The position numbers and the translations under genes are program-made. A DNA stretch of 64,000 nt. It comes from Ignavibacteriota bacterium (GTDB taxonomy: Bacteria; Bacteroidota; Ignavibacteria; Ignavibacteriales; Melioribacteraceae). Below, piece by piece: positions 10,401 to 63,590 of this stretch. The stretch lies in assembly GCA_002698995.1 (NCBI GenBank), contig PAAX01000030.1, positions 1 to 64,000 of the forward strand. The letters are read 5' to 3'. The notes beneath the pieces were generated by a model, which was not told the DNA's origin, searched no databases, and saw nothing but the letters and a program-made list of their open reading frames with translations. Position 1 is the first letter of the stretch. Every line of letters begins with the position of its first letter.

Positions 10401-10694
10401 GAAGAACGAATAACCTCGTACAACTTTCGCAAAAGGAACAGAAAGCATCTTTGTTGTCATCGGATAAGTAACTTGATCTTCAACAATTTGTGGACCTTGT
10501 CCGGGATATTCTGTATAGATAATAACCTGAACATCACTTAAATCGGGGATGGCATCTATAGCCGTATTTCTTAACGACCAATATCCTGCTCCAATCAAAA
10601 ACAGTGTAAAGATTATTACTAAAAATTTATTATTAATCGACCATTCAATAAGCTTCGAAATTAAACCGTCTTTTTGAGTACTTTGACTTACCAT
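7497..10694 (-). CDS. cusA: CusA-type Cu(I)/Ag(I) RND efflux pump
   Basis: A 1065-residue heavy-metal-efflux RND transporter with 12 expected transmembrane helices and two large periplasmic loops, working as a proton-driven trimer with CusB and a TolC-like channel. The helix-4 motif GAMVDAAIIMVENAHTHM is CusA-like rather than CzcA-like. Of the three pore methionines of E. coli CusA, two are conserved (APLTMIETT and TRIDMLSTGIK), but TLPGM is TLPGI here, so the first Met is lost. The gene follows cusB by 19 bp and is followed at once by a PII-like gene. Copper/silver specificity is a strong inference; related pumps could also take other soft ions. Confidence 0.92.
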   Translation of the reverse strand: MVSQSTQKDGLISKLIEWSINNKFLVIIFTLFLIGAGYWSLRNTAIDAIPDLSDVQVIIYTEYPGQGPQIVEDQVTYPMTTKMLSVPFAKVVRGYSFFGFSMTYIIFEDGTDIYWARSRVLEYLSSMQNELPQGVAPQLGPDATGLGWVYQYVLESDNHDLQELRSIQDWFLRYELSALPGVSEVASIGGFVKQYQVNVDPNTLASYGISLSKVRNAIKQSNNDVGGKLLEISEMEFMVRGLGYIKGVDDLRKIVIGNSIETGTPIYLEDVANIDIGPELRRGLVEWNGEGETVGGIIVMRFGENALDVINRVKGRLAELESSLPEGVRIVPAYDRSDLINAAIDNLKNTLIEESIIVSIIIILFLLHVRSSLVAIFTLPTAVLAAYIIMKYQGINANIMSLGGIAIAVGAMVDAAIIMVENAHTHMVHDQEKPKEKQKPHWALVLESAKEVGPSIFYSLLVITVSFLPVFTLEQQEGRMFKPLAYTKTYSMGMAAILAVTIVPILIGFFVRGKMRKEESNPITRLLTRLYHPVVDFVMTRRWWVIGLAILTMLITFIPYSKLGSEFMPPLYEGDLLYMPTTLPGISITKAKEILQQTDKIIKSFPEVESVFGKIGRARTATDPAPLTMIETTIQLKDKSKWREGITPDDLIEEMNAAIQIPGLTNAWTMPIKTRIDMLSTGIKTPVGIKIAGPDLNVLQEIGQEIENVARTIPGTRSAYAERSAGGNYVDFDIDRDAIARYGLNVGDVQNVIMSAIGGMNVSQTVEGLERYPINLRYQRDYRQNVEALKRVLVPLPRGGQVPLVELADVKVKKGPPAIKSENARPNAWVYIDIKDIDVGSYVKEAQRVINEQVTLPAGYSIVWSGQYEYMERSSKRLMMVVPVTLLLVIVLLYMNTKSVLKTSIILLALPFSMVGSIWFLYLADYNISVAVWVGIIALLGISAETGVVMLLYLDIAYDKFKKQGLIKSLNDLREAIFEGAVKRIRPKMMTVMTTMLGLLPILIGVGIGSDVMKRIAAPMVGGIITSFIMELTLFPAIFFIIKKKEVEQLSSSKSVNDTKQIEGE

Positions 10695-12692: not shown

Positions 12693-13961
12693 TTATTTAA
12701 TATCTGTTCCAACTAAAAATTCTATGTTGCTGATTTCTTTATAGTACTCAGATCTTATATTGAAAAGTTCAATTTCGACCTGTAACAATTTATTTTGCGC
12801 ATCTAAAACATTTATAAAATCGATTTCATTAACTTGATATGCCGACATTGCCGCATAATAAGTCTGTTCGGTTTGAGGCAGTAGTCCGTTTGCTATCAAC
12901 TCTTCTCTTTCTTCCAATTCCTGTAAAGAAGAAATTGATGACCCGAATTTTTGGAACAACATTTGTCTGGCGGATTCGTACTGAGATTCAAACATTTTTC
13001 GTTTTAGTTCAGCTTCTTCAACTGCGGCGGATTTTTTCCCGCCGTAATTTATCGGGAGCGAAATTCCAACCATAAAGGATAGGAAATCATTTAAATCGGT
13101 ATTCGTCCGTGCAATTTCATCCCTTTGTGAATATTGAATTCTCAGATTAAAATTCGGATAAAATTCATATTCTGCAAGATCCTTCATCAGAACCGTTTGC
13201 TCTTCCCTAAGTTTTACACCCTTAAGAAAAGGTCTGTATTCTCTTGCTAATGAATCAAGATAATTTACAGTAAATTTTTTAGCTGCAATCGCCTTGAGTT
13301 TGCTTGTATTAATGCCGGCATTGGAATTTTCAAGAATTAGCGCATTAATATTAGAAATAAGAGTTCTTTCCTTACTTTCTAATTTCTTTAATTTATCCTC
13401 TATTCTCGTTATTTCGGCTTGAACTTGTATTAAATTTTGCTGACTCGCTTTAGAAACCTGGTACTTTGTTTTAACAACTTGTGTAATACTTTCCAATAAC
13501 CTTTTTGATTCTAAGGTTACTTCAATTGTCTCTCGAACGTTAGCCAGATCATAATAATTTTTAGCAACCTGCATTCTAATTTCATTTATAGTATCGTCAA
13601 TTTCCTGTTGGATTATCTCGGAGTTTTTACTTTTAACATTTCCCATCGCATTTAATTTACCTGGAAAAGGAACCGCTTGACTTAATCCCACTATTTTACC
13701 GGTCATCGGTTCTTGTGTAAATGAGAAACTATTTGTCGGCAAATTAGCCAAACCCAGGGTTAACATCGGGTCGGGTAAATTTGAGACTTGCGGCACTTCG
13801 GCTTCTGCTGCTAATTGCTTATTTTTAAGTGCTTCTAATTTTGGACTAACTTCAATTGCTTTTTCAATTAGGTTGTTTAGAGTAGCATCTTGAACTTGTG
13901 CAATAACACTGCTGTTTTGTGACATCAATATTATTGCTAACAGAATTATTACTTTTCTCAT
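12693..13961 (-). CDS. cusC: TolC-family outer-membrane channel of the cus operon
   Basis: A 422-residue outer-membrane efflux protein (OEP family) with a signal peptide (MRKVIILLAIILMSQ...) and the usual two-fold helical repeats. It contains PDPMLTLGLANLP and a long coiled-coil region with AKNYYDLANV, typical of CusC/CzcC channels. The start is set at the ATG at 13959-13961, because it has an AAGGA ribosome binding site seven bases upstream and gives a clean signal peptide; an ATG 18 bp further up lacks one. It is the first large gene of the operon driven by the sigma54-type promoter at 14094-14110. Confidence 0.88.
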   Translation of the reverse strand: MRKVIILLAIILMSQNSSVIAQVQDATLNNLIEKAIEVSPKLEALKNKQLAAEAEVPQVSNLPDPMLTLGLANLPTNSFSFTQEPMTGKIVGLSQAVPFPGKLNAMGNVKSKNSEIIQQEIDDTINEIRMQVAKNYYDLANVRETIEVTLESKRLLESITQVVKTKYQVSKASQQNLIQVQAEITRIEDKLKKLESKERTLISNINALILENSNAGINTSKLKAIAAKKFTVNYLDSLAREYRPFLKGVKLREEQTVLMKDLAEYEFYPNFNLRIQYSQRDEIARTNTDLNDFLSFMVGISLPINYGGKKSAAVEEAELKRKMFESQYESARQMLFQKFGSSISSLQELEEREELIANGLLPQTEQTYYAAMSAYQVNEIDFINVLDAQNKLLQVEIELFNIRSEYYKEISNIEFLVGTDIK

Positions 13962-13971
13962 AAATTTCCTT

Positions 13972-14076
13972 CTAGTCATTTTTTGCTTTGAGGTTTTTTT
14001 TCAACAATAGAATTATCCCGATTGTAATACCGAAATAGACTATTATTGAAGCGATATGTATAATTAACTCATTCAT
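13972..14076 (-). CDS. Possible 34-residue membrane peptide at the head of the cus operon
   Basis: A short frame encoding one hydrophobic helix followed by a basic tail (LLLKKNLKAKND), of the type seen in tiny single-pass membrane proteins. It lies between the sigma54-type promoter and tolC. The predicted transcription start would leave only about seven leader bases, and I see no ribosome binding site, so the frame may be fortuitous. Confidence 0.35.
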   Translation of the reverse strand: MNELIIHIASIIVYFGITIGIILLLKKNLKAKND

Positions 14077-14093: not shown

Positions 14094-14110
14094 GGCAAAG
14101 AGAGTGCCAA
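14094..14110 (-). promoter_or_regulatory. Sigma54 (-24/-12) promoter of the cus operon
   Basis: On the minus strand this reads TTGGCACTCTCTTTGCC, a full match to the TGGCAC-N5-TTGC consensus with correct GG-GC spacing. The start point would be near 14083, ahead of tolC. A phased A/T-box array lies upstream at 14162-14194. Confidence 0.85.
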
Positions 14111-14161
14111 ACGGAGAAATAGGTTTTTGGGTCAAATTGGAAAGAATTTTTTGCGGGATTT

Positions 14162-14194
14162 TTAAATTTCTTTAAATGATTTTAAGGTTTTTAA
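14162..14194 (-). promoter_or_regulatory. Phased TTAA-box array (candidate activator site) for the cus promoter
   Basis: Four TTAA boxes begin at 14162, 14172, 14182 and 14191, so they sit on one face of the helix. In minus orientation the farthest box begins 86 bp upstream of the -24 GG. The same layout precedes four other sigma54-type promoters in this window. It is a candidate enhancer for the sigma54 activator encoded next door. Confidence 0.65.
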
Positions 14195-14408
14195 AAAGTA
14201 TAAATTACTATTACTACTGATTATTCTATGGATCGGATTTTTACAAAATCTTTATGAGCGCTGTTGAAATATCTTAAAACAACTCTTTGTTTAATAGAGG
14301 GGAATATAATACAATCATTTTAGGCTTGTATAATATTATAATATTATATTATTGCAATTAGCACTTTAAAGTAACTGTAAGAAAACAAAAAGCAACAACA
14401 TTAACGAT
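14195..14408. other. AT-rich spacer between the response regulator and the cus control region
   Basis: I see no gene here. The stretch holds a long AT palindrome around 14329-14353 (TAATATTATAATATTA core) that may end transcription of the regulator gene or bend DNA. Confidence 0.4.
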
Positions 14409-15755
14409 TTACTTTTTTATATCGTAGTTTTCTATTTTACTATAGAGCGTTGGTAGGGAGATGCCAAGTATTTTAGCTGCTTTAGGTTTATCCCATTTTA
14501 ATTTAGTGAGAACTTTTTCGATGTGCATTTTTTCGATATCACTGAGTGTGTAATTTAAAACCGAATCGAATTCATAGGATTTTTTTTCTGTGTCGTGTAA
14601 AAGAATATTTTCCTTTTCAAGAACATCGCCTTTTGAAAGAACCACAGCTTGCATCAAAGTATTTTCCAATTCTCTTACATTGCCAATCCATTCATGGTTT
14701 ACAAGCATATCCATAACGGAAGCAGGTAACTTAACAACCGATTTATGAAGTTCTTTATTTACTTTATTCAAAAAATGATTGACTAATAATGGAATATCTT
14801 CGCGTCTTTCTCTTAATGGAGGTAAATTAATTGTAACAATATTCAATCTATAATATAAATCTTCTCTAAACTTTCCAGCTTCTACAAGCTTTTCCAAATT
14901 TTTATTTGTAGCAGCCATTATTCTTGCTTTCATTGGTATTACAGTTTCACCGCCTACTCTCTCAAATTCTTTTTCCTGCAATATTCTTAATAGTTTAATC
15001 TGAAGATTCGGCGATACCTCGGAAATTTCATCGAGAAAGATTGTCCCGTCTCCGGCTAATTCAAATTTTCCTTTTTTATCTTTTATTGAGCCGGTAAAAG
15101 CACCTTTCACATGACCGAATAATTCGCTTTCGAGCAAAGTCTCCGTTAGTGCAGTACAATTAACCGGGATGAATGGAGAGTTTTTAGTTATGCCGCTGTA
15201 ATGAATAGCTCGTGCAACAAGCTCTTTGCCTGTTCCGCTTTCCCCCTGAATTAAAGCTGTAACCCTGCTGCTAGAAACTTGTCCGATCTTTTTGAATATT
15301 TCTTTCATTACTTGTGTTTTACCGATTAGAACATTTCTCGGTTCATAAGTTTCGGCGTTCTCTTCAATAATCGTATCTAGTTTCTCGCTTAATTTTTTAT
15401 TATCCAGTGCTCTTTTGATCGTAATTTTTAAACGGTCTATATCTAGAGGTTTTTCTATAAAATCATAAGCGCCTTTTTGCATCGCATCAACAGTTGTCTG
15501 CATTTCATCAAATGCAGTAATCATAATAAAATGAATACTGCTATCTATCTCTTTTATCTTTTCGAGAACCTCAAGTCCTGTCATTTTCGGCATCTTATAA
15601 TCGCAAATAACAAGATCGGGCATTTCAATTCTTATCAACTCAACACCTTTACTTCCGTCTTCAGCAGCCATAGGTTGATAACCCTGCCGTTTAAGAAAAG
15701 TTGTTAGAGTTTCTCGTATCGATTGATCATCGTCAATTACTAGTATTTTTTCCAT
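14409..15755 (-). CDS. Sigma54-dependent response regulator (NtrC/ZraR type)
   Basis: A 448-residue enhancer-binding protein. The receiver domain has the acidic pocket DDD near residues 8-10, phospho-acceptor D52 (VICDYKMPK) and the switch lysine in EKPLD. The AAA+ domain has Walker A GESGTGKE, the sigma54-contact loop GAFTGS (last residue Ser rather than the common Ala) and Walker B GTIFLDEIS. A Fis-type helix-turn-helix (PKAAKILGISLPTLYSKI) ends the protein. It overlaps the histidine kinase gene by 23 bp, so they form a pair. The gene is followed by the sigma54-driven cus operon. The five -24/-12 promoters with shared upstream arrays make it the likely master activator of the local metal regulon. 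Confidence 0.92.
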   Translation of the reverse strand: MEKILVIDDDQSIRETLTTFLKRQGYQPMAAEDGSKGVELIRIEMPDLVICDYKMPKMTGLEVLEKIKEIDSSIHFIMITAFDEMQTTVDAMQKGAYDFIEKPLDIDRLKITIKRALDNKKLSEKLDTIIEENAETYEPRNVLIGKTQVMKEIFKKIGQVSSSRVTALIQGESGTGKELVARAIHYSGITKNSPFIPVNCTALTETLLESELFGHVKGAFTGSIKDKKGKFELAGDGTIFLDEISEVSPNLQIKLLRILQEKEFERVGGETVIPMKARIMAATNKNLEKLVEAGKFREDLYYRLNIVTINLPPLRERREDIPLLVNHFLNKVNKELHKSVVKLPASVMDMLVNHEWIGNVRELENTLMQAVVLSKGDVLEKENILLHDTEKKSYEFDSVLNYTLSDIEKMHIEKVLTKLKWDKPKAAKILGISLPTLYSKIENYDIKK

Positions 15756-17874
15756 TATCGTTGTTCTTTATTAATAATTCAATTTGAAATATTGTTTCAC
15801 CTTTGCGGGATGATACTAACTCAATTGTTCCGTTGTGAAGCTCAATTATTTTCCGTGCAACCGCCAAACCTAATCCGGTTCCGGATGATTTTGTAGTATA
15901 AAAAGGTTCGAATATTTTTTTCTTCATGTCTTCCGGAATGCCTAAACCATTATCCATTAGCTTAAACAATATTCTTCCGTCTTTCGATTTATCTACAACT
16001 GAATCAATTTTTAATTCACCGTTCTCCTCGACAGATTCATATGAATTTTGAATAAGATTGAGAAATACCTGATGAAGCTTTTCCTTGTCGGCATAAATCT
16101 CGGCACTCTTACCATCGTAAATCACCTTAAAATTCTTATCGGCAAATTTTGCTTTATAATTTCCGATTATTTCTTCAATCAGTTCTTTTATATCAAATTG
16201 TTCTTTATTCAGATTCATTTGTTTAGCAAACAGTAGTACTTCTTTAACCAAATTGTTTAAGCGATTAATTTCCTTTTTGATAATATTCATTGATGATGCA
16301 TCATCCTCGTTCAAGACCAAACTTTCTGCAAGCATATCGCTGTTCATTTTTATCGAAGTTAGTGGAGTTTTGATCTCATGAGTAAGAATAGCTGCCATTT
16401 TACCAAGCGCAGCAAGTTTTTCCGAATGAGCTAACTGAGATTCTAGTTTCTTTAAATCCGTGGTATCGATTGCAATTAGTAGGTAACCGGCAGGCTTCGC
16501 TTCGTCAATATAGAAGGGCGACATCGTAATTAAATAGTTCTTTATTTCTTCATCAAATTGAATACTGATTTCTTCTTCAAGTTTATTTTTGCCATTAAAT
16601 TTTTGCAGCACTTCAGTAAGTTCCTTTAGATTTGTAGCAGGTTCAATTATTTTGAAAATGATACTATTATAAAGATTAGCTTTACTAATTTTCAAAATAT
16701 TGGAAAATTCAGTATTCAACTCAATAATCTTACCCGATAAATTCAACACACATATTGCAGCATTAGATTTTTCGAACGCATTTAATAGCATTTCAATTCT
16801 ATTCTGTTTTAGTTCTAATTCTACACTATCAATTATTAATGTTTTTGACATTTCATTGAATGTTGCTGCTAATTTTCCTAATTCATCATTAGAATAAATA
16901 TCAACAACTGTACCATAATTTCCTCTACGAATTTCAGTGGTTTTCTCTATCAGTTTATTTAAAGGATTAGCAATCAGCTTGGTAATCATAAATGCCATTG
17001 CAGTACTGACAATTATTCCACCAAATAGACTAATAAAAAAGTAGTGTTCCCACTGTTCACCTGTTTGGATATCAAATAAAATTCTTCCCAATGGAATCTG
17101 TATCAATAATATTATAACGGGAACAACAATAACTGCTGAGAAAATAATTTTTTTATTCAATGAGAATGATTGAATTTTCGAAATCGCCGTAGGGAAAAGA
17201 TCAAACCTGGATATCGCAATTGCTGTAGTAAGAATAACACCAATAAAAAATGCGAGCGGACTTATCTCGACTAAATAATAGAATCCAAGTATCCAAGGTA
17301 AATACAATCCGAAAACGAATGCAGTTAAATTGGTAATTATTAAACCAATAAGAACAGTGAAGATTTGTTTTCTTATTTGATTGCTTTTAGAAATAATTGC
17401 TTTCTTAACTAAGAAATAGATACTTAGCGATAATAAAAGAACATACCAAACTAAATATCCGGCATAATAAGGACTATAATGCGCCTCCAATTTTTTTGTA
17501 TGAACATGTGAAGATTCTACGAGATAACCACTCCACAGAAGCAAAATTAGCGCTGCAGAGGGCACTATAAGAAATAGCTTCAACGGGAAACTCATATCCT
17601 TGCTGGAATGAAAGTAATATGAAAAGAATGTTAACACTAGTATTATTAGCAACAGAAATGAATGACATGATTGATCGAGAATTGTTACGTCTTCGGAAGG
17701 CATTATTATAAAATGAACGAAGTGAGAAATCAAATATCCAATTACAAGTAATAAAGTTAACACAAATAATTTTCGTGAAATTTCTGCAATACTTCTCGAA
17801 TATATTATGTAGATAATTCCAATTGCCGAAATTATTGTTGCTATCAAAAATAGAGTGTTAAAAATTTGTGTCAT
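15733..17874 (-). CDS. Membrane histidine kinase of the metal regulon
   Basis: A 713-residue sensor kinase. The N-terminal third holds about seven to nine transmembrane helices, then a HAMP linker (about residues 300-350), a PAS domain (about 365-475), and a HisKA domain with LTHEIKTPLTS, phospho-acceptor His near residue 499. The HATPase domain has LIQNSYES (N box), DNGLGIP and TGLGLAVARK. No large periplasmic loop is evident, so the signal is probably sensed in or near the membrane. The start is taken at the ATG at 17872-17874; a TTG 15 bp upstream is possible. It overlaps the response regulator gene. The cognate signal is probably a metal such as copper, by context only. Confidence 0.9.
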   Translation of the reverse strand: MTQIFNTLFLIATIISAIGIIYIIYSRSIAEISRKLFVLTLLLVIGYLISHFVHFIIMPSEDVTILDQSCHSFLLLIILVLTFFSYYFHSSKDMSFPLKLFLIVPSAALILLLWSGYLVESSHVHTKKLEAHYSPYYAGYLVWYVLLLSLSIYFLVKKAIISKSNQIRKQIFTVLIGLIITNLTAFVFGLYLPWILGFYYLVEISPLAFFIGVILTTAIAISRFDLFPTAISKIQSFSLNKKIIFSAVIVVPVIILLIQIPLGRILFDIQTGEQWEHYFFISLFGGIIVSTAMAFMITKLIANPLNKLIEKTTEIRRGNYGTVVDIYSNDELGKLAATFNEMSKTLIIDSVELELKQNRIEMLLNAFEKSNAAICVLNLSGKIIELNTEFSNILKISKANLYNSIIFKIIEPATNLKELTEVLQKFNGKNKLEEEISIQFDEEIKNYLITMSPFYIDEAKPAGYLLIAIDTTDLKKLESQLAHSEKLAALGKMAAILTHEIKTPLTSIKMNSDMLAESLVLNEDDASSMNIIKKEINRLNNLVKEVLLFAKQMNLNKEQFDIKELIEEIIGNYKAKFADKNFKVIYDGKSAEIYADKEKLHQVFLNLIQNSYESVEENGELKIDSVVDKSKDGRILFKLMDNGLGIPEDMKKKIFEPFYTTKSSGTGLGLAVARKIIELHNGTIELVSSRKGETIFQIELLIKNNDNGKNTSN

Positions 17875-17920
17875 CTTTATAAAACCCAAGCTTTATTTAC
17901 TAAAATTATATTTACGTTCA

Positions 17921-17952
17921 TTAAATATTTTAAAAAAATTAAAGATACTTAA
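17921..17952 (+). promoter_or_regulatory. Phased TTAA-box array upstream of the 18099 gene
   Basis: Four TTAA boxes begin at 17921, 17930, 17939 and 17949. The first lies 85 bp upstream of the -24 GG of the promoter at 18005-18019. It matches the arrays at the cus, 18943, 22895 and 23616 promoters. It also lies just upstream of the histidine kinase gene, which reads the other way. Confidence 0.62.
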
Positions 17953-18004
17953 ATTACCCATATCAATAATTCATCTGAAACATCAAATTTTACTTAATGT
18001 TCCC

Positions 18005-18019
18005 CGGCATGGGATTTGT
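18005..18019 (+). promoter_or_regulatory. Sigma54-type promoter upstream of the YHS gene at 18099
   Basis: CGGCATGGGATTTGT has GG and TTTG at the spacing of the -24/-12 consensus; the last base is T rather than C. A start near 18031 would give a leader of about 70 bases. Confidence 0.6.
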
Positions 18020-18098
18020 ACTTATAAAAGCCTATCGGAATATAAATATTCTTAAAACTAGATGTGTAGAATGAAATTTCACAATAGGTACAATAAAA

Positions 18099-18317
18099 AT
18101 GGAAAAAGAAAATACATATTACTTTGATCCCGTGTGCGGAATGAAAGTAACCAAACCAGAAGAGAAAGATCTTCGATTATTTTCCACAGCATATAATGGA
18201 AAAATATTTTATTTTTGCTCTCCTTTTTGTACGGCAGCTTTTCTTGATAATCCGAAAAGATATATAAACAATAAAGATAACTATGATGGAAATGATTCCA
18301 AAAGAAATTCCCTATAG
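18099..18317 (+). CDS. Small YHS/TRASH metal-binding protein
   Basis: A 72-residue protein made mostly of one YHS domain: DPVCGMKV near the start, a YNGKIFYFCSPFC centre and FLDNPKRYI near the end. The three cysteines in DPVCGM and FCSPFC are the expected metal ligands. YHS domains occur in copper- and mercury-linked proteins and in copper-ATPase N-termini. There is no signal peptide, so it should be cytoplasmic. It follows a sigma54-type promoter with a phased A/T-box array, and its end overlaps the next gene by 35 bp. Confidence 0.82.
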   Translation: MEKENTYYFDPVCGMKVTKPEEKDLRLFSTAYNGKIFYFCSPFCTAAFLDNPKRYINNKDNYDGNDSKRNSL

Positions 18318-18648
18318 AGACAAAAGTGAATTTTTGCGAGGCTTTTTACTGCTAATACGTCAGGATAAAAAGATTAGCAAATACGAAAGAAATATGACCT
18401 TAGTAATTGGGAAATATTTTGGTTTTGATGAAGAATTTTGTGAGGAAAGTATTGATTCAATTTTGGTGAATGAATATGTATCGAACGATCCGCCTCAATT
18501 TTCAAGTAAATCTATAGCAAAATATTTTGTGTTAGAATCATATAATATCCTTAAACAAATTCATTTATTAACCGACACAGAGTTGGAATGGTTAAGAAAA
18601 ACTGCCGAGGCTAATCATTTAAAAGGTGAATTGGAAAACCTGTCATAG
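18283..18648 (+). CDS. Small helical protein of unknown function, TerB-like flavour
   Basis: A 121-residue, all-helical, acidic soluble protein that I do not recognise with certainty. The pattern FLRGFLLLIRQDKKISKYERNM followed by helices with conserved acidic residues recalls TerB-like tellurite/stress domains, but the match is weak. It overlaps the end of the YHS gene and so should be translated with it from the same sigma54-type promoter. The exact start could be either of three nearby ATG codons (18283, 18286, 18292). Confidence 0.6.
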   Translation: MMEMIPKEIPYRDKSEFLRGFLLLIRQDKKISKYERNMTLVIGKYFGFDEEFCEESIDSILVNEYVSNDPPQFSSKSIAKYFVLESYNILKQIHLLTDTELEWLRKTAEANHLKGELENLS

Positions 18649-18771
18649 ATATATTGGCTCATAATTTTATCGAATTTTTTTCTAAACCTAATCAATATTA
18701 ATCTTGTATTTATTGAAAAATAGATCAAGCATTCTTGTTTCCTTCCACGTAAACCATTTTGATTATCCGTT

Positions 18772-18803
18772 TTAAAAAATTAAAAAATATTCAAATACTT
18801 TAA
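18772..18803 (+). promoter_or_regulatory. Phased A/T-box array upstream of the 18943 gene
   Basis: TTAA boxes begin at 18772, 18780 and 18800, with a TTCAAA variant at 18790. The first box is 84 bp upstream of the -24 GG of the promoter at 18854-18870. The layout matches the other four arrays. Confidence 0.6.
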
Positions 18804-18853
18804 AGAACTCTTCTTTTGTGATATGAAATAGATTATATAAAGCAAATTTCCGA

Positions 18854-18870
18854 TCGGCATAATCATTGCA
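18854..18870 (+). promoter_or_regulatory. Sigma54 promoter of the YHS-DUF5676 operon
   Basis: The core CGGCATAATCATTGCA keeps GG and TTGC at exact -24/-12 spacing. The start point would be near 18881, about 60 bases before the YHS gene at 18943. Confidence 0.75.
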
Positions 18871-18942
18871 CATCCACAAATGACATTAGATATAATAAGA
18901 TTTTCCAAAACTTGCAAAGCAAAATAAAACACTGAGGTTATA

Positions 18943-19110
18943 ATGCAAAAAAAACACGATGTACTACGCGACCCTGTTTGTGGTAAAAAAATGAATCCGA
19001 ACAAAGCTTATGCAAAAGTAAAAGTAGGTAAAGACACATTTTATCTATGCTGCCCTGTCTGTCAATCCGAGTTTGAAAATGATCCGGAGAAATTTATCAA
19101 TAAAAAATGA
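18943..19110 (+). CDS. 55-residue YHS metal-binding protein
   Basis: A very short protein that is a single YHS domain: RDPVCGKKMNP, then FYLCCPVCQSEFENDPEKF. It has four cysteines available for soft-metal binding (one in DPVCGK, three in LCCPVC). It lies 72 bp after the sigma54-type promoter and 13 bp before a tandem DUF5676-like membrane gene, so the two should be cotranscribed. YHS and DUF5676 genes are neighbours again at 26046-26528, which supports a shared job, probably metal delivery to or from a membrane partner. Confidence 0.8.
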   Translation: MQKKHDVLRDPVCGKKMNPNKAYAKVKVGKDTFYLCCPVCQSEFENDPEKFINKK

Positions 19111-19123
19111 GTTAGGAGCGAAA

Positions 19124-19699
19124 ATGAAAAAGTTAGAACCTTATCCAATAGCGACAGCGCTTTTTTTCATATTTACAACCTTATACATCGTATGTATCGG
19201 AATAAAGCTGCTTCTGGTTGGTTTCGGAATTGAGGGAATCTGGCACATGCACGAAATTTGGAAGTATTTTTTGCCGGGGTTTAACGGACTCTCTAGTTTA
19301 AGCATACTTGTAGGCTTAATAGAAGTCTCTCTCGGCTCATACTTTTTAGGTTATATAATTGTTCCGGTTTATAATTACCTCGCACAGCCGAACAAACCGG
19401 AGAAAATATACCAGGCAAGCCCTATTAAAATAAGATTTGCCACCTTGTTCTCTACATTGTCGATATACACCGGTATTCTTTTTTCAATTTGCTTATTGTA
19501 CGATCTGGTTGTTCCACCTGAATACCAAATGCTATATGTCTGGGAATTACTGCTGCCGGGCTTCACTGAGTTGAGTTTTACTCAGTATTTACTCGGTTTA
19601 TTCGACATTCTCGTTTACAGTGCATATACGGCATTCATCTTTTCAATTACATTGAACTTTTTTGAAAAAACCGAAATTAAAAAGAATCTGAAAACTTGA
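19124..19699 (+). CDS. Membrane protein with two DUF5676-like halves
   Basis: A 191-residue membrane protein with about four helices in two similar halves. Each half has a helix, a short loop ending in LLPG/FLPGF, then a helix with LGLIE/LLGLFD and a polar end (VPVYNY in the first half). The halves resemble the single-unit DUF5676 protein at 26046-26315. The start is the ATG at 19124-19126, which has a TTAGGAG ribosome binding site; a longer frame runs into the YHS gene. The function is unknown. Its repeated pairing with YHS genes suggests a small metal-related membrane unit. Confidence 0.7.
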   Translation: MKKLEPYPIATALFFIFTTLYIVCIGIKLLLVGFGIEGIWHMHEIWKYFLPGFNGLSSLSILVGLIEVSLGSYFLGYIIVPVYNYLAQPNKPEKIYQASPIKIRFATLFSTLSIYTGILFSICLLYDLVVPPEYQMLYVWELLLPGFTELSFTQYLLGLFDILVYSAYTAFIFSITLNFFEKTEIKKNLKT

Positions 19700-19709
19700 G
19701 GAAAATAAA

Positions 19710-20012
19710 ATGTTAGACAATAATCAAAGCAAAATAGAGTTGCGGAAAAACAAATACGCATCAAAATATTTTGGAGTAGCAACCGGAGTATTAGCGGTAA
19801 TTTTGTTCATGCTGATAATACTTAATTCGGCGGTTTCGAATATTAACGAAGCTCAACTAATTAAGCCGTTTATCCCTTTCTGGAATGGAATGAGTATTCC
19901 TAATATTGCAGGCGGAATTTTTATTTCATTTATTTGGGGCTGGTTAATTGGATTTTTCTTTATGCTGATCTATAACTTTTTTGATAGCAAGTTTTCAAAT
20001 GAAGAAAGATGA
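19710..20012 (+). CDS. Small membrane protein, DUF5676-like
   Basis: A 100-residue protein with a charged N-terminus, two transmembrane helices (about residues 25-48 and 65-90) and a polar tail. The spacing KPFIPFWNGMSIPNIAGG...LIYNFF recalls the LLPGF...VPVYNF pattern of the DUF5676 neighbours, so I regard it as a diverged member. It starts 11 bp after the tandem DUF5676 gene and has a GAGGAAA ribosome binding site, so it belongs to the same sigma54-driven operon. The function is unknown. Confidence 0.6.
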   Translation: MLDNNQSKIELRKNKYASKYFGVATGVLAVILFMLIILNSAVSNINEAQLIKPFIPFWNGMSIPNIAGGIFISFIWGWLIGFFFMLIYNFFDSKFSNEER

Positions 20013-20086
20013 GAAATGGGTTAGGATTTTTGTCCATTGTTTTTTATCTGATTTTGATGTCTCTGATATTCTGGCAAACGGACTGA
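20009..20086 (+). CDS. Possible 25-residue membrane peptide (ATGA-coupled)
   Basis: A tiny frame whose ATG overlaps the stop of the preceding gene as ATGA. It encodes a short N-terminus, one hydrophobic helix (FLSIVFYLILMSLIF) and a TD end. Coupled tiny membrane peptides also occur before lspA (54923). Support is limited to frame, overlap and hydrophobicity. Confidence 0.3.
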   Translation: MRNGLGFLSIVFYLILMSLIFWQTD

Positions 20087-20110
20087 ATCTATTTCCCGGT
20101 CTGTTTGCCA
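20072..20110 (+). terminator. Stem-loop after the YHS-DUF5676 operon
   Basis: TGGCAAACGGAC (20072-20083) pairs with GTCTGTTTGCCA (20099-20110), with one G-T pair. No T run follows, so it may be an mRNA-stabilising hairpin or a Rho-linked end rather than a classical terminator. Confidence 0.55.
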
Positions 20111-20168
20111 ATAACAACAGAGTTTGGAAACTATAAAAAAATATTTTCTGAATTAATTAAACGCACTT

Positions 20169-22529
20169 ATGAAAAATCTGAAACCATTTATAATAATATT
20201 CTTCTTATCTCTCTCAACATTAAGTTTTGAGATAATACTTGCAAGAATATTTTCGTATATCCTCGCTTATCACTTTGTATTTATAATAATTGCTTTTTCC
20301 ATACTTGCTATAGCTCTGGGTCAATTATATACCTCACGTTTAATAGCAAATAATTCCTTTTCCATATCAAAATATTTTATTCTTCTGCAAGCACTGTTCC
20401 CTATAAGCTTAGCTGCGATTTTTATCTTACCTGCAATTGAAAATATCGGCTCCGGTTCTACCGGTTTGTTGATGTATATTTTCCTTTCTGGAATTACCTT
20501 CTTTTTAGTGGGAGTGATAACAGCTTACATATTTCAGAATATTGAAGAAAGGATAAGCAGACTTTATGCAGTTGATTTATTGGGAGCAGCAGCCGGTTCG
20601 TTACTCGGATTATTCTTATTAAATGAGTTCGCAATTTTTCAAGCTCTCGCATTCATTTCTATTATATTTTCCGGAGCTGCTTTTTTTGCTGTAAGTTATG
20701 ATAAAAAAAATAAAGCAAAGCTTATAATATTATCTTCTTTAGCTGCTATTTCAGCAATGTTTTTTATTTTCATCCCACATAGTCCACAACTAACTATAGC
20801 AAAATCTCCTAATAAAGATTTGCTCCGTATTCAAAGTGATCCATCGGTAAAATCGGATATTGTTGATAGTGAATGGAATTCATTTGGTAAAACCGATTTG
20901 GTTGAATTTTATTATACTAATTCAACTTCGTCACAATCTATGTTTATTGACGGTGCTGCTGGAACTCGTGTTGTTAGTATTGCTGAACTAGAAAAAGATT
21001 CAGTAAGGCTATCCCACACCCTTATGCATTCCGGTATATATTTTCCTTTTAATTTTCTGAATGAAAATGAAAAAGATACAGCCTTGATAATTGGTCCCGG
21101 TGGTGGATATGACATTGCTATAGCCTATTTCGGCGGTGTTAAAAAGATTGGCGCTGTTGAAGTAAATCCTTCCTTTGTATCACTAATGAAAAAGTATAAT
21201 CCTTCAACTTTTACAGATCAGCCAAATATTGATGTAATTATAAGTGAAGGAAGAAATTTTGTTAAAACCAGTAATACCAAATATGATCTGATATTTTTGA
21301 CTATCCCTATTACAAAAGGCGTTAGGTCAAGCGATTTCGTTAATCTTACTGAAAATTATTTATTTACTATGGAAGCGGTAGAAGATTATTTAAATATTCT
21401 TACTCCTGAAGGAAGAATTATTTTTACAATGCACAACAGTGAAGAAGTTTATAAAATGCTTTCAAATTATTTGGAGCTTCAATCCAAACGTGGGTTAACT
21501 AATCGCGAAGCATTTAAGTATATTTATGTAGTTGACAACGGCATGAACCCTCTGCTCGTTATCAAAAAGAATGCTTTCAATAAAGAGGATATTGAACCAA
21601 GGCATTACTTATCCCATAAACTTCGCTTCGATAATGGAATTACCTTTTTCCCTTTTACACAACAGTTAAGAAAAGATACTGTACTGCAAGGACAGAATTA
21701 CGAATTTTCGATGTTTGACGATATTTTATATAAAATAGCAAATAACAAATACAACTTTCACGATGTAACTGAAAAAGCCTTAGTAAACCTCCACCCTGTA
21801 TCAGACGATTCACCCTTCTTCTTTAACTATAATTTAGGAATTCCGGATAATATGGATGGCTTAATTTATTCTGTTGTTATCCTAATAGGTTTATTCGCGT
21901 TTTTATTCAAGCGAAATTTTAACGTACGATTCGATCAGCCAAACAAATCGGAAAATTATAGTAATCTATTTAGATATTTTTCTTTCACAGCATTTGTGCT
22001 TGGGTTTTCTTACATATTAGTTCAATCTTACCTATTTCAGATGCTGAATACATTTTTATCCAACCCGCTTGAAAGTTTTTCTGTTTTATTGTTTTCATTT
22101 TTGTTGGGTACCGCCGGTGGAAGTTATGCAGTAAATACAATCAAGCGGCAGTACTTGCTGTTAGGTGTCTATTCGATTATAGCTGCACTGACCGTATTGT
22201 TGATTGAAATTTTTGTTATAATTCCCAGCTACAATAGTCCTTCTACTTTAGAACTTTTTCTATTGGTAGTAATCCCGGCAGTGCTGATTGGAATTCCATT
22301 CCCGGTTCTATTACAGGAAGTCTTTAAAATACGCACCTCAAACGGAATACCGATTATATTAGGTATTTCCGGTGGCGCCGGTTTTATCGGTTCCGTTGGT
22401 GTGCTCATTGTCGCTACTCTTTGGAGTTACAAAGTTGTATTAACTCTAGCAGGCGTCGGTTATATTCTTGTTATTTATATCTACAATAAAGTTTCTAAAC
22501 AGCAGGTTTATTTAAATTACTCTGACTGA
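20169..22529 (+). CDS. Membrane-embedded spermidine-synthase-like protein
   Basis: A 786-residue protein with an N-terminal block of about six helices, a central SAM-binding Rossmann domain like that of spermidine synthase, and a C-terminal block of about seven helices. The nucleotide motif ALIIGPGGGYDI lies near residue 300, with the acidic VEVNPS after it. The IPIT segment differs from the catalytic DxxD/DSTDP loops of SpeE, so aminopropyl transfer is unsure. Such fusions are widespread in bacteria and mostly uncharacterised. It follows the DUF5676 operon by about 80 bp after the hairpin, and I see no sigma54 element directly before it. Confidence 0.75.
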   Translation: MKNLKPFIIIFFLSLSTLSFEIILARIFSYILAYHFVFIIIAFSILAIALGQLYTSRLIANNSFSISKYFILLQALFPISLAAIFILPAIENIGSGSTGLLMYIFLSGITFFLVGVITAYIFQNIEERISRLYAVDLLGAAAGSLLGLFLLNEFAIFQALAFISIIFSGAAFFAVSYDKKNKAKLIILSSLAAISAMFFIFIPHSPQLTIAKSPNKDLLRIQSDPSVKSDIVDSEWNSFGKTDLVEFYYTNSTSSQSMFIDGAAGTRVVSIAELEKDSVRLSHTLMHSGIYFPFNFLNENEKDTALIIGPGGGYDIAIAYFGGVKKIGAVEVNPSFVSLMKKYNPSTFTDQPNIDVIISEGRNFVKTSNTKYDLIFLTIPITKGVRSSDFVNLTENYLFTMEAVEDYLNILTPEGRIIFTMHNSEEVYKMLSNYLELQSKRGLTNREAFKYIYVVDNGMNPLLVIKKNAFNKEDIEPRHYLSHKLRFDNGITFFPFTQQLRKDTVLQGQNYEFSMFDDILYKIANNKYNFHDVTEKALVNLHPVSDDSPFFFNYNLGIPDNMDGLIYSVVILIGLFAFLFKRNFNVRFDQPNKSENYSNLFRYFSFTAFVLGFSYILVQSYLFQMLNTFLSNPLESFSVLLFSFLLGTAGGSYAVNTIKRQYLLLGVYSIIAALTVLLIEIFVIIPSYNSPSTLELFLLVVIPAVLIGIPFPVLLQEVFKIRTSNGIPIILGISGGAGFIGSVGVLIVATLWSYKVVLTLAGVGYILVIYIYNKVSKQQVYLNYSD

Positions 22530-22605
22530 TTCACAGACGCTATCAAGTAAATAACGGAAAGTTGTTAAATTGATACTACCCCTTTGTGAATAGACATATA
22601 GTCAG

Positions 22606-22637
22606 TTGTAGAGACGGGGCATGCCCCATATCTACAA
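22606..22637. repeat. 32-bp imperfect palindrome with GGGGCATGCCCC core
   Basis: Outer arms TTGTAGA and TCTACAA flank a perfect GGGGCATGCCCC core. Palindromes of this TTGTAGAGAC type occur as scattered, probably mobile, intergenic repeats in several bacterial phyla. Only one copy was noticed in this window. Confidence 0.6.
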
Positions 22638-22748
22638 AGTCCATGGTCTTATATATGTAAGTCGTTTGAAAATATATTCTAATGACAAATCCAGATTAAC
22701 TAAAAGGAAAGGAACACAGAACTTCACTGTTTCAATTTGATTAGAAAA

Positions 22749-22781
22749 TTCAAAAAACTAAAAATTCTTTAAGATATTTAA
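22749..22781 (+). promoter_or_regulatory. Phased A/T-box array upstream of the 22895 gene
   Basis: Boxes begin at 22749 (TTCA), 22758 (CTAA), 22769 (TTAA) and 22778 (TTAA). The first is 85 bp upstream of the -24 GG at 22834, as in the other arrays, although two boxes are diverged. Confidence 0.5.
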
Positions 22782-22831
22782 CATCAGCAATGCTACTTCC
22801 CCTTCATACACTTCATAATCAATATTTTTTC

Positions 22832-22847
22832 TTGGTACGGTAATTGG
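22832..22847 (+). promoter_or_regulatory. Sigma54 promoter of the His-rich peptide gene
   Basis: TTGGTACGGTAATTGG matches TTGGYACG-N4-TTGS with correct GG to TTG spacing. The start would be near 22859, giving a short leader with a GGAGG site before the ATG at 22895. Confidence 0.7.
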
Positions 22848-22894
22848 TTAATCTATTAGATATAGATAGATGAACCCAAATTATGGAGGTAGTT

Positions 22895-23047
22895 ATGTTA
22901 AACGTGATTCTTGGTATTTTCATTGCGCTTATTTTTATTGGAGGATTAAATTATTTTCTTACCAGAAGCAGTATAAAAAAGGCAGCTCAGAATGGCGGGT
23001 TGGGTAATCATAATCATAAATCCGGCGGTCATGGTTGCTGCCATTGA
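22895..23047 (+). CDS. 50-residue membrane peptide with His/Cys tail
   Basis: A single transmembrane helix (about residues 3-24) is followed by a short basic stretch and a tail NHNHKSGGHGCCH, well suited to binding metal at the membrane surface. It has a strong GGAGG ribosome binding site and a sigma54-type promoter upstream. A YHS gene follows 40 bp later. A second membrane peptide with a His-rich tail (25844-26017) sits by another YHS/DUF5676 set, so the combination recurs. Confidence 0.7.
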   Translation: MLNVILGIFIALIFIGGLNYFLTRSSIKKAAQNGGLGNHNHKSGGHGCCH

Positions 23048-23087
23048 ATTAATATGCTAAATGTTTAATCTAAAAAAGGAGATTGAC

Positions 23088-23321
23088 ATGGAACTGGACC
23101 CGGTTTGCGGAATGAAACTCAGTAACATTTTTGATACCCCGCGGAGCGCATATAAAGGCAGAGTGATATATTTCTGCTGCCCTAAATGCAAAGGTATGTT
23201 TGATACGAACCCGGATGCCTATACTTCCGGAATACATTTCGAATTTAGTTACAGTAATCCAAAACCCGATAAATGTGATTGTAACGAAAAGGTTTTATCT
23301 ATTCGCCCTTCTCGGAGATAA
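23088..23321 (+). CDS. YHS-domain metal-binding protein
   Basis: A 77-residue cytoplasmic protein. The YHS domain runs from LDPVCGMKL through VIYFCCPKCKGMFDTNPDAY, and a tail adds KCDCNEK, giving extra cysteines. I set the start at the ATG at 23088 because it has an AGGAG ribosome binding site; a longer frame upstream would cover that site. It should be cotranscribed with the His-rich membrane peptide gene just upstream. Confidence 0.8.
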   Translation: MELDPVCGMKLSNIFDTPRSAYKGRVIYFCCPKCKGMFDTNPDAYTSGIHFEFSYSNPKPDKCDCNEKVLSIRPSRR

Positions 23322-23346
23322 TTTGTTAATACTCACGTTGAGAAAA

Positions 23347-23367
23347 AATTGCAGTTGAAATGCAATT
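23347..23367 (+). terminator. Short hairpin after the YHS gene
   Basis: AATTGCA pairs with TGCAATT across a seven-base loop, about 25 bp after the YHS stop. It is weak, with no T run. Confidence 0.3.
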
Positions 23368-23448
23368 GTAATTGAAAAACATTGTTGATGATCTATATTC
23401 TGATATCAGAACTCAACAAGTTGAAACAGGTTATCTAACGTAGATCCT

Positions 23449-23480
23449 TTAAATTTTTTAAAAGTTTTTAATCTTTTTAA
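23449..23480 (+). promoter_or_regulatory. Phased TTAA-box array upstream of the TPR gene
   Basis: Four TTAA boxes begin at 23449, 23458, 23468 and 23477. The first is 85 bp upstream of the -24 GG at 23534, the same distance as in the other sigma54-type control regions here. A separate palindrome (TTCTGATATCAGAA, 23398-23411) lies further upstream. Confidence 0.62.
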
Positions 23481-23531
23481 TTCAATAAATAGACCTTTCC
23501 TCTCATTTGGGCTTATAACCGCAGCTAATTT

Positions 23532-23547
23532 CTGGCACTCTAATTGA
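23532..23547 (+). promoter_or_regulatory. Sigma54 promoter of the TPR gene
   Basis: CTGGCACTCTAATTGA keeps TGGCAC and TTG at exact -24/-12 spacing. The start would be near 23559, about 57 bases before the TPR gene ATG. Confidence 0.72.
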
Positions 23548-23615
23548 TTTTTAAGCAATTAAGCGAAATTACTTAATCGAACAGATATCTACTTCCATTT
23601 TCATTGGAGCTTGAT

Positions 23616-24554
23616 ATGAAAAATTACTTACTGGTACTTGTATTTATTATATCTTTTCTTGTATTGAATGCCCAAGATCAAATTGGCTCTATGGCAGAAA
23701 AATCACCTGATAATTCATTTGAAATAGGTATTCAATATTTTCACAAAGAGAACTTACAACAAGCGGAGGTTAATTTTCTAAAAACGCTGAAAAACAATCC
23801 GGATCATATAGATGCATTAAAATATCTCGCAGAGATTGCAATAGCACAAAAAAAGATTCCGATTGTTGAATACTACTATAGTAAGGTTTTAGAACTAAAT
23901 ACGGAAGATGTGGACGCATTGATAAGTTTAGGAGTAATTCAGTTAAATACGGGGAACTTTGAGCAAGCTGAGATTTTTTTGCAGCGAGCTTTAGAGAACG
24001 AACCCAATAACGAGCTTGCCCTTTTTAATTTGGGTGTTTTATATGGAGCCGCTGGAAAATTATCTACTGCAACTGAAACATTAAAAAAGGTAATTTCAAT
24101 AAACCCCGGTAACGGTAAGTATTATCAAACTCTCGGACTGTATTTTCTGTTGCAAGATCGTTATTCGGATGCAGAAGCAATGTTTCTTAAATCTTTAACG
24201 CTAGACCAAAATTTAATTGATTCACGGAAAGGTTTGGTAATAATTTATCAAAATCAAAATAAGCTTACTTCCTCTCAAAAATATATTCACGATTTGGAAG
24301 TACTTTCGCCGAACCTACCTTCTCTGAATTTATTAAAAGCAAAACAGTATTATCTTAATAATGAAATAGAAATGGCGATCGACTATGCTCAACAAGAAAT
24401 AGAGGAAAACCCTCTTGAACCTGATGCTTATTATTTTCTTGTCGATTTATACAAGATAAAAGGTGAAGATAGAAAAGCTGATGCCCTCTCTATTGCAGCG
24501 CAAAAATTGAACGAAATGGATAACGCCAAACAGCTTAGCAAAAATAAAAGGTAA
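23616..24554 (+). CDS. Exported TPR-repeat protein
   Basis: A 312-residue protein with a signal peptide (MKNYLLVLVFIISFLVLNAQ) and about seven tetratricopeptide repeats, recognisable by the A/G-x-Y-A and NPxN patterns (for example ENEPNNELALFNLGVLYGAAG). It is a periplasmic scaffold; the partner is unknown. The start is the ATG at 23616, since the longer frame begins with TTG. It has its own sigma54-type promoter with the shared A/T-box array, so it should be induced with the cus genes. A second TPR protein of similar type lies at 42574-43431. Confidence 0.8.
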   Translation: MKNYLLVLVFIISFLVLNAQDQIGSMAEKSPDNSFEIGIQYFHKENLQQAEVNFLKTLKNNPDHIDALKYLAEIAIAQKKIPIVEYYYSKVLELNTEDVDALISLGVIQLNTGNFEQAEIFLQRALENEPNNELALFNLGVLYGAAGKLSTATETLKKVISINPGNGKYYQTLGLYFLLQDRYSDAEAMFLKSLTLDQNLIDSRKGLVIIYQNQNKLTSSQKYIHDLEVLSPNLPSLNLLKAKQYYLNNEIEMAIDYAQQEIEENPLEPDAYYFLVDLYKIKGEDRKADALSIAAQKLNEMDNAKQLSKNKR

Positions 24555-24638: not shown

Positions 24639-25715
24639 ATGCAACTTATACCTGAATGGGCGCCGAATATTCATCCGCTCATAGTTCACTTTCCTATAGT
24701 GTTTTTAATATCGGCACTATTCTTCGATGCCGCAGGGTTAATATTTAAAAAATCCGTATGGCTCGAAAAATCTGCAATGATACTTTATGCAATCGGCACC
24801 CTGGCAATTGTTATAACTTATTTTACCGGGCGTTCAGCCGCCGATGGGCTTAACATTCCGGCGAAAGTTATACCTTCGGTAACAGACCATGCCGATTGGG
24901 CTGAAATCACTATGTGGTTTTTCATAATATTTTCAATTGTAAGGTTAACGATTGGTTTGTTTTTAAAATCCGTAAATCGGACTATAGTTATTGTGGTCGT
25001 TATTATTGGTCTTGTGGGTATTTATCCTCTATTTCAAACCGGTGAACATGGCGCCAAATTGGTTTTTGGTTATGGGCTTGGTACAGGCAATATATTGAAA
25101 GATGACTCATCTGCCGTTAAAACTAATAACAACAATGAGACGCAGATTAGCAATTCAAACCTAACTCACAATAATGACGGTTCATGGAAACTAAACGCCG
25201 GAAATAACGTGGTAGATATTCTGAACGATAAGTTTACCTGGATTAACGGTACTATTGAAGATTTTTCCCCAATGTATAATGACGAAAACGCCGCCTTAAT
25301 GTTTCATTTTCAAGATGATATAAAAAACGCAGGTTTCATTTTTGATAATAAGCTTGCAAGCATTCAAGTAACCGCAAAAATAAATATTGACAACTTTAAC
25401 GGCGTAATAGAATTAGTCCATCACTTTTTAGATAAAAACAATTATGATTTTCTCGGGATCGCTGATCAAAAGTTATCTCTTTCCAGAAAAATTAATGGAA
25501 AGATTAAGAATTTCGAAGAAAGTAGTTTTTCCTCCAAAGGATGGATAGAATTGAAATTAATCACCGACGGTTCTCACTTTAGAGGTTATATAAATAACAA
25601 ACTAATTTTACACGGACACGGCGATGAACCGGAGCCCGGCAGCATTGGAATATTATTTTCCGGTAAAGGTAATGTAAGTATTAGAATGATTGATGCTGTT
25701 GTATTGGAAAACTAA
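24639..25715 (+). CDS. DUF2231 membrane domain fused to a lectin-like domain
   Basis: A 358-residue protein. Residues 1-150 form a DUF2231 membrane domain with four helices (IHPLIVHFPIVFLISALFFD is its hallmark, with conserved His). A linker is followed by a beta-sandwich domain (about residues 180-358) of the concanavalin-like/DUF1080 type. DUF2231 proteins are often near cytochrome or copper genes and may bind haem or metal through the conserved histidines. The gene has a strong GGAGG site. No sigma54 element is seen directly before it. Confidence 0.72.
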   Translation: MQLIPEWAPNIHPLIVHFPIVFLISALFFDAAGLIFKKSVWLEKSAMILYAIGTLAIVITYFTGRSAADGLNIPAKVIPSVTDHADWAEITMWFFIIFSIVRLTIGLFLKSVNRTIVIVVVIIGLVGIYPLFQTGEHGAKLVFGYGLGTGNILKDDSSAVKTNNNNETQISNSNLTHNNDGSWKLNAGNNVVDILNDKFTWINGTIEDFSPMYNDENAALMFHFQDDIKNAGFIFDNKLASIQVTAKINIDNFNGVIELVHHFLDKNNYDFLGIADQKLSLSRKINGKIKNFEESSFSSKGWIELKLITDGSHFRGYINNKLILHGHGDEPEPGSIGILFSGKGNVSIRMIDAVVLEN

Positions 25716-26045: not shown

Positions 26046-26315
26046 ATGCTGAACATAAAGATTGTAACATGGTCATTGGGGATTTTTACTGCCGTTAGCT
26101 TTATTGTTTGTGTAAGCTATGGTCTTATAACTCCGGAAAGCATTCACATGCATACATTTTTGGAATCAGTGCTCCCGGCTTTTAAATGGTTAACCTTCTG
26201 GGGTTTTATACTTGGTCTTATAGAAAGTTTTTTATACGGTGTTTACGCAGGTTTGGTTTTTGTTCCGGTTTACAATTTCTTTTATAAAAAATGGGCAATA
26301 GCTAAACCAAACTAA
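26046..26315 (+). CDS. DUF5676 family small membrane protein
   Basis: An 89-residue, two-helix membrane protein with the family hallmarks: an N-terminal helix, SIHMHTFLESVLPAFKW, a second helix with LGLIESFLYG and the end VPVYNFF. It has an AAGGAG ribosome binding site and is followed by a YHS gene 33 bp later. DUF5676 has no known function. Here it recurs beside YHS and His-rich peptide genes, which argues for a metal role. Confidence 0.8.
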   Translation: MLNIKIVTWSLGIFTAVSFIVCVSYGLITPESIHMHTFLESVLPAFKWLTFWGFILGLIESFLYGVYAGLVFVPVYNFFYKKWAIAKPN

Positions 26316-63574: not shown

Positions 63575-63590
63575 TTGGCATAGAAGTTGG
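63575..63590 (+). promoter_or_regulatory. Sigma54 promoter before the broken DUF302 gene
   Basis: TTGGCATAGAAGTTGG keeps GG and TTG at -24/-12 spacing. No phased TTAA array lies 85 bp upstream (that place is the terminator), so it probably answers to a different activator than the five promoters around 14-24 kb. Confidence 0.68.

Follow-up and report, generated by a model that had tools for sequence, protein, structure and literature searches.

Several described systems frame the locus reported here. ZraSR is an NtrC-type two-component system of metal stress that uses sigma54, and CusR, the regulator of the Escherichia coli CusRS system, is of the OmpR type and does not use sigma54. Enhancers of the NtrC/NifA type are paired sites upstream of sigma54 promoters, some with a known dependence on helical phase; the classical forms are GC-containing dyads that often lie further upstream and can be moved. 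A known precedent for sigma54-controlled copper genes under an NtrC-type two-component system is CorSR of Myxococcus xanthus, a kinase and a sigma54-type response regulator (receiver, Sigma54_activat and HTH_8 domains) that control copper genes; the report on CorSR and the curA operon names a multicopper oxidase and a P-type ATPase carrying a YHS domain (PF04945) among these genes, predicts four putative sigma54 promoters and predicts that CorS combines a periplasmic sensor with one transmembrane helix, while the term 'binding site' is absent from its main text (PMC3707914). In this study we analyse a stretch of 64,000 nucleotides from an Ignavibacteriota genome (contig PAAX01000030.1; hereafter the window), where an NtrC-type response regulator and a seven-transmembrane (7TM) sensor kinase adjoin a CusCBA-type pump, and where five sigma54-type promoters each follow an array of four short boxes, mostly TTAA.

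Like CorSR, this locus has an NtrC-type regulator and copper genes behind sigma54-type promoters, the targets being assigned here from sequence and the likeness being one of architecture. In contrast to the published domain prediction for CorS, the kinase has a HisKA_7TM N-terminus with invariant His and Cys residues, and, compared with the CorSR targets named in that report, the candidate targets also include cusCBA and small YHS, TPR and spermine-synthase-like genes. The pairing of kinase and regulator with a CusCBA-type pump recalls E. coli CusRS-cusCFBA, the E. coli CusA being the best solved-structure match of the pump, whereas the regulator has NtrC-type rather than OmpR-type domains. 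ZraSR shares the NtrC-type architecture and sigma54 but has different targets, and the NCBIfam ZraR (391.7 against a cut-off of 760) and ZraS (154 against 479) models both score below their equivalog cut-offs. Unlike the classical NtrC/NifA-type enhancers, the arrays consist of four TTAA boxes at a short distance that shifts only by whole turns. In the part of the open-access literature covered, we found no description of this enhancer form, its quantised spacing, the 7TM His/Cys sensor or the gene set.

The first G of the -24 element lies at 14108 on the minus strand and at 18006, 18856, 22834 and 23534 on the plus strand, and the arrays and promoters occur where the preliminary description had placed them (Table 1). 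Across the five arrays 17 of 20 boxes are exact TTAA, the remainder being TTCAAA or CTAAA, and in all five the boxes are spaced by 8–11 base pairs (bp) and the first box begins 84–86 bp from the -24 GG, as had been claimed. In a relaxed four-box test (at most one mismatch per box, at least two boxes exact) all five upstream regions passed, against a mean of 0.55 in 2,000 dinucleotide-preserving shuffles, none of which reached four; shuffled DNA of equal dinucleotide content did not reach the observed rate. The signal is carried by the array and its distance, because the -24/-12 words alone occur at chance level in the window (TGG-N8-TTGC, 8 observed and 7.0 expected; a looser word, 58 observed and 60.8 expected; neither significant), and we dropped sigma54 words on their own as evidence. 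A further sigma54-type promoter, at 63575, indeed has no array. Among 28 standard sites, GG and TTG stand 10 bp apart in 28 of 28 each, counts that are biased in that direction since the sites had earlier been picked with a sigma54 score; in many of them an A-run is conserved at -20 to -16 from the -24 GG, between array and promoter. The genome encodes sigma54 itself (rpoN; PF04552, 3.4e-59). The minus strand of array B, inspected for a promoter of the kinase gene, gave no usable -12 word and a weak match at 17849-17946 (6.2 bits) to the model R1 described below, and we therefore claim no autoregulation in the window.

R1 was built from the five window sites only, with the A/T-rich spacer written as N because the MAFFT alignment put gaps there. 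Across the whole 4.2-Mb genome it returned the training sites at 40–44 bits, then one more full-length match (24.3 bits, E = 1.2e-4) and next a partial one of 16.3 bits. This sixth arrayed promoter (C35:86481-86581) lies on the window's contig, beyond the window, with a multicopper oxidase just upstream and, downstream, a 149-amino-acid protein, a SHOCT protein, a P-type ATPase with YHS and HMA domains and a cupredoxin, a neighbourhood that points to copper. The metal regulon proposed in the preliminary description thus stands as metal-related and is narrowed to copper/silver by this ATPase and cupredoxin and by Met residues of CusA considered below.

The arrays recur in relatives before cus and YHS genes, usually beside the kinase–regulator pair, and follow the regulator, as the earlier proposal of a scan had anticipated. 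Regulator identity among 58 relatives (own genome included) runs from 57 to 100% and then drops to 53% and lower, with another set of 52–55% in other families. R1 reached at least 24 bits in 13 of the 58 genomes, all 13 being among the 26 with a regulator of at least 57% identity (hand count). The sites provide a quantified cis-code for a regulon in a lineage in which the 25 closest named records come, the one labelled Bdellovibrio apart, from metagenome-assembled genomes, the 24 loci (regulator at least 57% identical) being labelled Melioribacteraceae, Ignavibacteria(e/ceae), Chlorobiota or Bacteroidetes/Bacteroidota. Locus scans gave 72 tabulated sites, a few of which are doubtful, spread over 29 genome labels; the table was hand-picked, leaving aside near-identical copies (L029, L030, L082, L083), mirror-strand or partial matches, contig duplicates and matches below 20 bits, while L084, a near-copy of the sixth site, was kept there, among the array–promoter pairs and in the array counts. 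Behind these arrays stand genes for CusC-like (20 genome labels), CusB-like (20) and CusA-like (18) proteins, YHS-containing proteins including P-type ATPases (11), proteins of the 149-amino-acid type (6) and cupredoxins (6), and the regulator usually adjoins cusCBA and the 7TM kinase.

For a wider census we used a refined model, R2, of 25 sites trained on 8 genomes. Among 245 genomes of the class, R2 matched at E ≤ 1e-5 in 18, and relatives of the regulator were present at E ≤ 1e-150 in 40 and at E ≤ 1e-180 in 19; 17 of the 18 fall within the 19, the remaining one (G246) falls within the 40, and none is among the 205 others (hypergeometric P = 1.4e-16). With the 8 training genomes and two near-copies removed, all 8 remaining R2-positive genomes lie within the 40 (P ~3e-8). 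In 296 genomes of the phylum, R2 matched at E ≤ 1e-4 in 11, all of them among the 12 with a regulator at E ≤ 1e-180 (15 at E ≤ 1e-150); because the class sample had already included those 12, the wider run contributes nothing but further negatives. The regulator gene of G008 is 98–125 kb away from the arrays, so the link is more than a shared neighbourhood and fits action in trans. The exact 9-10-9 spacing, tried as a census of the same 245 genomes, gave 26 distinct arrays, 14 in the 19 regulator genomes (three of those carrying the pattern are near-copies of one another in the copper region) and 12 in the other 226 (hand count); it was set aside as specific but too strict, its reversed-pattern control being an AATT pattern.

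The distance from array to promoter is quantised. We defined arrays without reference to a promoter (four exact TTAA, spacing 8–11 bp) in 1.26 Mb of loci and sought strong sigma54 words 25–109 bp away, which yielded 44 array–promoter pairs at 44–45 bp (3), 53–56 bp (24), 64–68 bp (15) and 77 bp (2), with none between; the Rayleigh R was 0.76, 0.82 and 0.84 at periods of 10, 10.5 and 11 bp. A promoter accompanied 42 of 45 distinct arrays, where 0.054 per array was expected, and only 11 of 125 unphased clusters of four TTAA, at scattered distances. The commonest box spacing was 9-10-9 (17 of 46 parses). Two of the 45 arrays are flanked by a promoter on each side (L033:12878-12909, 56 and 77 bp; L036:7395-7426, 45 and 56 bp). 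The fixed array–promoter distance asserted earlier thus holds in the window and gives way, in relatives, to steps of about one helical turn, so that these natural spacing variants exhibit a whole-turn rule for short-range sigma54 activation.

Box sequence and regulator vary jointly. When 58 regulators were placed in a tree, one branch (100/98) split 31 labelled by TTAA boxes from 6 labelled by CTCA boxes, 21 unlabelled ones not being counted. At the recognition helix the TTAA group has ISLPTLYSKI and the CTCA group ISKATIYRKI, or in each case a closely similar sequence. Of ten regulators from the CTCA subclade and its closest relatives, mostly of family f8, 8 are followed at no more than 250 bp from the gene by a strong sigma54 promoter, and 6 of these 8 promoters carry one or more full CTCA-N3-TGAG palindromes upstream (centres at -58; -78 and -58; -90; -91; -88; -56), the other two having only a similar half. 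Those promoters hold 7 of the 11 such palindromes in 150 kb of CTCA-type loci, and a chosen subset of ten TTAA-type loci contains 2 in 200 kb. Loci of the CTCA sister clade (L226, L229, L231, L232, L233 and L236) have a receiver-containing kinase without the 7TM domain, and cus genes were not recognised in their fetched stretches. The natural exchange of box and helix is, short of a footprint, the best evidence that the regulator reads the boxes, and it offers a natural test of how sigma54-activator specificity changes, TTAA going with PTLYSK-type and CTCA-TGAG with ATIYRK-type helices.

Taken together, the arrays are very probably enhancers of a copper, possibly also silver, regulon, bound by the regulator encoded at 14409-15755 and activating the sigma54 promoters behind them. 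We infer the following mechanism. The 7TM kinase would sense metal through its conserved His/Cys residues and then phosphorylate the regulator. The array would comprise two pairs of TTAA boxes, mostly 9-10-9 bp apart, each pair taking one regulator dimer, so that two dimers might occupy the same face of the DNA with two helical turns between them. The regulator would build an AAA+ ring and open sigma54-RNA polymerase waiting on the -24/-12 elements, some five turns beyond the last box; the two dimers would seed the ring beside the polymerase over a distance below 100 bp, at which DNA is presumed too stiff for free twisting. Such a short, stiff spacer would oblige the array to face the polymerase and hence let the distance vary across species in whole turns only. 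The earlier suggestion that this regulator drives the cus operon together with YHS, TPR and DUF5676 genes is supported by co-occurrence, cus linkage and the joint box/helix change for all but the DUF5676 gene, which has no array of its own and could be read only by read-through from the TPR promoter. We put at slightly below even the chance of a broader proposal, namely that these sigma54 promoters form a class of their own, with a rigid face-of-helix enhancer in which two dimers bind a nearly symmetric array of four boxes, acting at whole-turn distances only, able to serve two divergent promoters, re-specified by joint change of box and helix, and wired to a new 7TM copper sensor (HxxH...CH...HxH) and to a set of small YHS, spermine-synthase-like and two-transmembrane (2TM) proteins that would make up a new copper-handling pathway.

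Several observations weigh against assigning the arrays to this regulator and to copper. At a looser cut (E ≤ 0.01) R1 matches 27 of the 58 genomes and R2 85 of the 245, many listed R2 matches being partial, and both sets also take in regulator-less genomes, the strongest such R2 match being that of G023 (E = 1.1e-4, 24.5 bits). G246 has a strong R2 match, yet it shows no more than two TTAA boxes and its regulator is of the CTCA type, and we take the match as chance. G044, the one miss among the 12 phylum genomes with a regulator at E ≤ 1e-180, and G051 carry the regulator with weak R2 matches, yet in both a four-box array stands at one of the quantised distances. Most loci in the phasing test had been fetched through R1 or R2 matches or through the regulator, which favours distances near -55 but gives -45, -65 or -77 no advantage over the intervening values. 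Labels in the tree were set, in part by visual judgement, by what the loci contain or, for L048 and L222, by what the same genome contains, and the tree does not unite the 29 Cus-linked regulators in a single clade: they branch around an open fork, which also gives rise to a supported group of 26 others (97/92). TTAA arrays adjoin two regulators outside the Cus-linked group, L051 and L057, with the recognition helix PTLY[HS]K, so boxes of this type are not confined to copper genes; three unlabelled loci with PTLYSK or PTLYNK (L055, L114 and L120) show a partial TTAA pattern. Finally, the sigma54-contact loop of the regulator reads GAFTGS in translation, against a canonical form that we take to be GAFTGA.

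The A/T-rich boxes, phased by about one turn, and the additional A-run at -20 to -16 would also suit a DNA-shape or nucleoid-protein element (an IHF/HU-like site or phased A-tract curvature) that aids looping while the activator binds elsewhere. We regard this as improbable: strong matches track one regulator group over 245 and 296 genomes, for which an architectural protein would give no reason, box sequence changes with the regulator's recognition helix, and the TpA step in mid-box interrupts A-tracts. A paralogous NtrC-type regulator might instead bind the arrays, for example the 59% identical one at G000:C31:399941, as the genome has many such proteins (29 scored matches among 103 candidates) and arrays adjoin the two regulators outside the Cus-linked group in other genomes. 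Yet no R1 or R2 match is listed in the 20 kb around that paralogue, 23 of the 29 Cus-linked regulators (hand count) have cus genes in their own fetched stretch, and an array also precedes the kinase–regulator genes themselves in three genome labels (G056, G053 and WY4). We regard this reading as improbable too, a shade more so than the architectural one. Chance clustering of A and T in an A/T-rich genome, an origin of the arrays favoured by the chance frequency of sigma54-like words in the window, has a negligible likelihood against the shuffle test, the one independent genomic match and the sites that recur over 29 genome labels, a few of these sites being doubtful, and conservation has in our view already refuted it.

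In the regulator encoded at 14409-15755, PF00072, PF00158 and PF02954 all score above cut-off in one chain. Another NtrC-type regulator, about 40% identical, is encoded at 62057-63424, just before the array-less promoter. The N-terminus of the kinase, whose start is probably the ATG at 17874, is a HisKA_7TM domain (PF16927). Across 25 aligned kinases, those of 25 of the 29 Cus-linked regulators, Y52, H56, H59, D72, C75 and H76 are invariant, and H130 (24 of 25), H128 (23 of 25) and M63 (21 of 25) nearly so. Kinase candidates beside other regulators entered the set in 13 of 15 cases, two falling under the cut of 300 amino acids; all 13 match the kinase part and none of the 13 matches the N-terminal 300 residues (best E 2.0). 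The kinases of the Cus-linked group suggest a class of sensors that carry a conserved set of His and Cys residues within the membrane domain. CusA aligns with E. coli CusA (3k07) at 1223 bits and with the zinc pump ZneA at 555 bits, and the alignment to 3k07 keeps Met at three positions (hand-counted), which we take to be E. coli CusA 573, 623 and 672.

Among the other genes of the copper region (Table 1), the arrays suggest a likely copper/silver setting for the small YHS, 121-amino-acid, spermine-synthase-like, DUF5676-type and, before the copper ATPase, 149-amino-acid families. The spermine-synthase-like protein possibly brings polyamine or metallophore chemistry into copper handling, and the DUF2231 membrane protein is a probable operon partner of the TPR gene.

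Table 1. Arrays, promoters and genes of the copper region (window positions; aa, amino acids)
Feature	Position	Strand	Evidence
CusA copper/silver RND pump	7497..10694	-	TIGR00914 1227 bits; best PDB match E. coli CusA 3k07
CusB-like adaptor, four HMBD metal-binding stretches	10714..12660	-	
TolC/CusC-like outer membrane channel	12693..13979	-	best matches TolC/NodT families, below NCBIfam cut-offs
Sigma54-type promoter A, TGGCACTCTCTTTGCC	14094..14109	-	
Four-box TTAA array A, candidate enhancer of cus operon	14162..14194	-	R2 53.9 bits (training site)
NtrC-type response regulator (receiver, sigma54 AAA+, Fis-type helix-turn-helix); proposed array-binding activator	14409..15755	-	
Sensor kinase, 7TM N-terminal domain, invariant H56, H59, D72, C75, H76	15733..17889	-	
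Four-box TTAA array B	17921..17952	+	
Sigma54-type promoter B, CGGCATGGGATTTGTA	18005..18020	+	
YHS-domain protein 1	18099..18317	+	PF04945
121-aa protein, no Pfam family; behind arrays in 4 genome labels	18283..18648	+	
Four-box array C, third box TTCAAA	18772..18803	+	
Sigma54-type promoter C, CGGCATAATCATTGCA	18855..18870	+	
YHS-domain peptide 2	18943..19110	+	PF04945
208-aa protein (as listed), clusters with DUF5676-type genes	19073..19699	+	
Small protein, 100 aa, in DUF5676-type cluster	19710..20012	+	
786-aa protein, spermine/spermidine synthase-like domain; behind arrays in 5 genome labels	20169..22529	+	PF01564
Four-box array D: two exact TTAA, TTCAAA and CTAAA	22749..22781	+	
Sigma54-type promoter D, TGGTACGGTAATTGGT	22833..22848	+	
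54-aa peptide, His-rich tail ending GHGCCH, no Pfam family	22883..23047	+	
YHS-domain protein 3	23061..23321	+	PF04945
Four-box TTAA array E, exact 9-10-9 spacing	23449..23480	+	
Sigma54-type promoter E, TGGCACTCTAATTGAT	23533..23548	+	
TPR protein	23604..24554	+	
DUF2231 membrane protein	24639..25715	+	
DUF5676 2TM protein, without own array	26046..26315	+	PF18926

The copper region (window 1-28717 compared with L029, L030, L082 and L083) is 96.9–99.9% identical, stretch by stretch, in G000, G013 and G032, and the regulator is 99.8–100% identical among the copies. As these three genomes are assigned to different genera, the near-identity argues for recent horizontal transfer of the region. 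Window positions 5529-5924 interrupt the near-identity to G013 and G032, the protein at 5216-5986 being just 56% identical in the copies. G032 additionally carries a 1.4-kb insertion with two open reading frames (L082:6893-8332, at about window 22604) between the spermine-synthase-like gene and promoter D; the frames resemble an OrfA/OrfB pair that we presume to be of the IS3 type, and a 12-bp overlap suggests a target duplication. A contig of G013 ends within about 60 bp of this insertion point.

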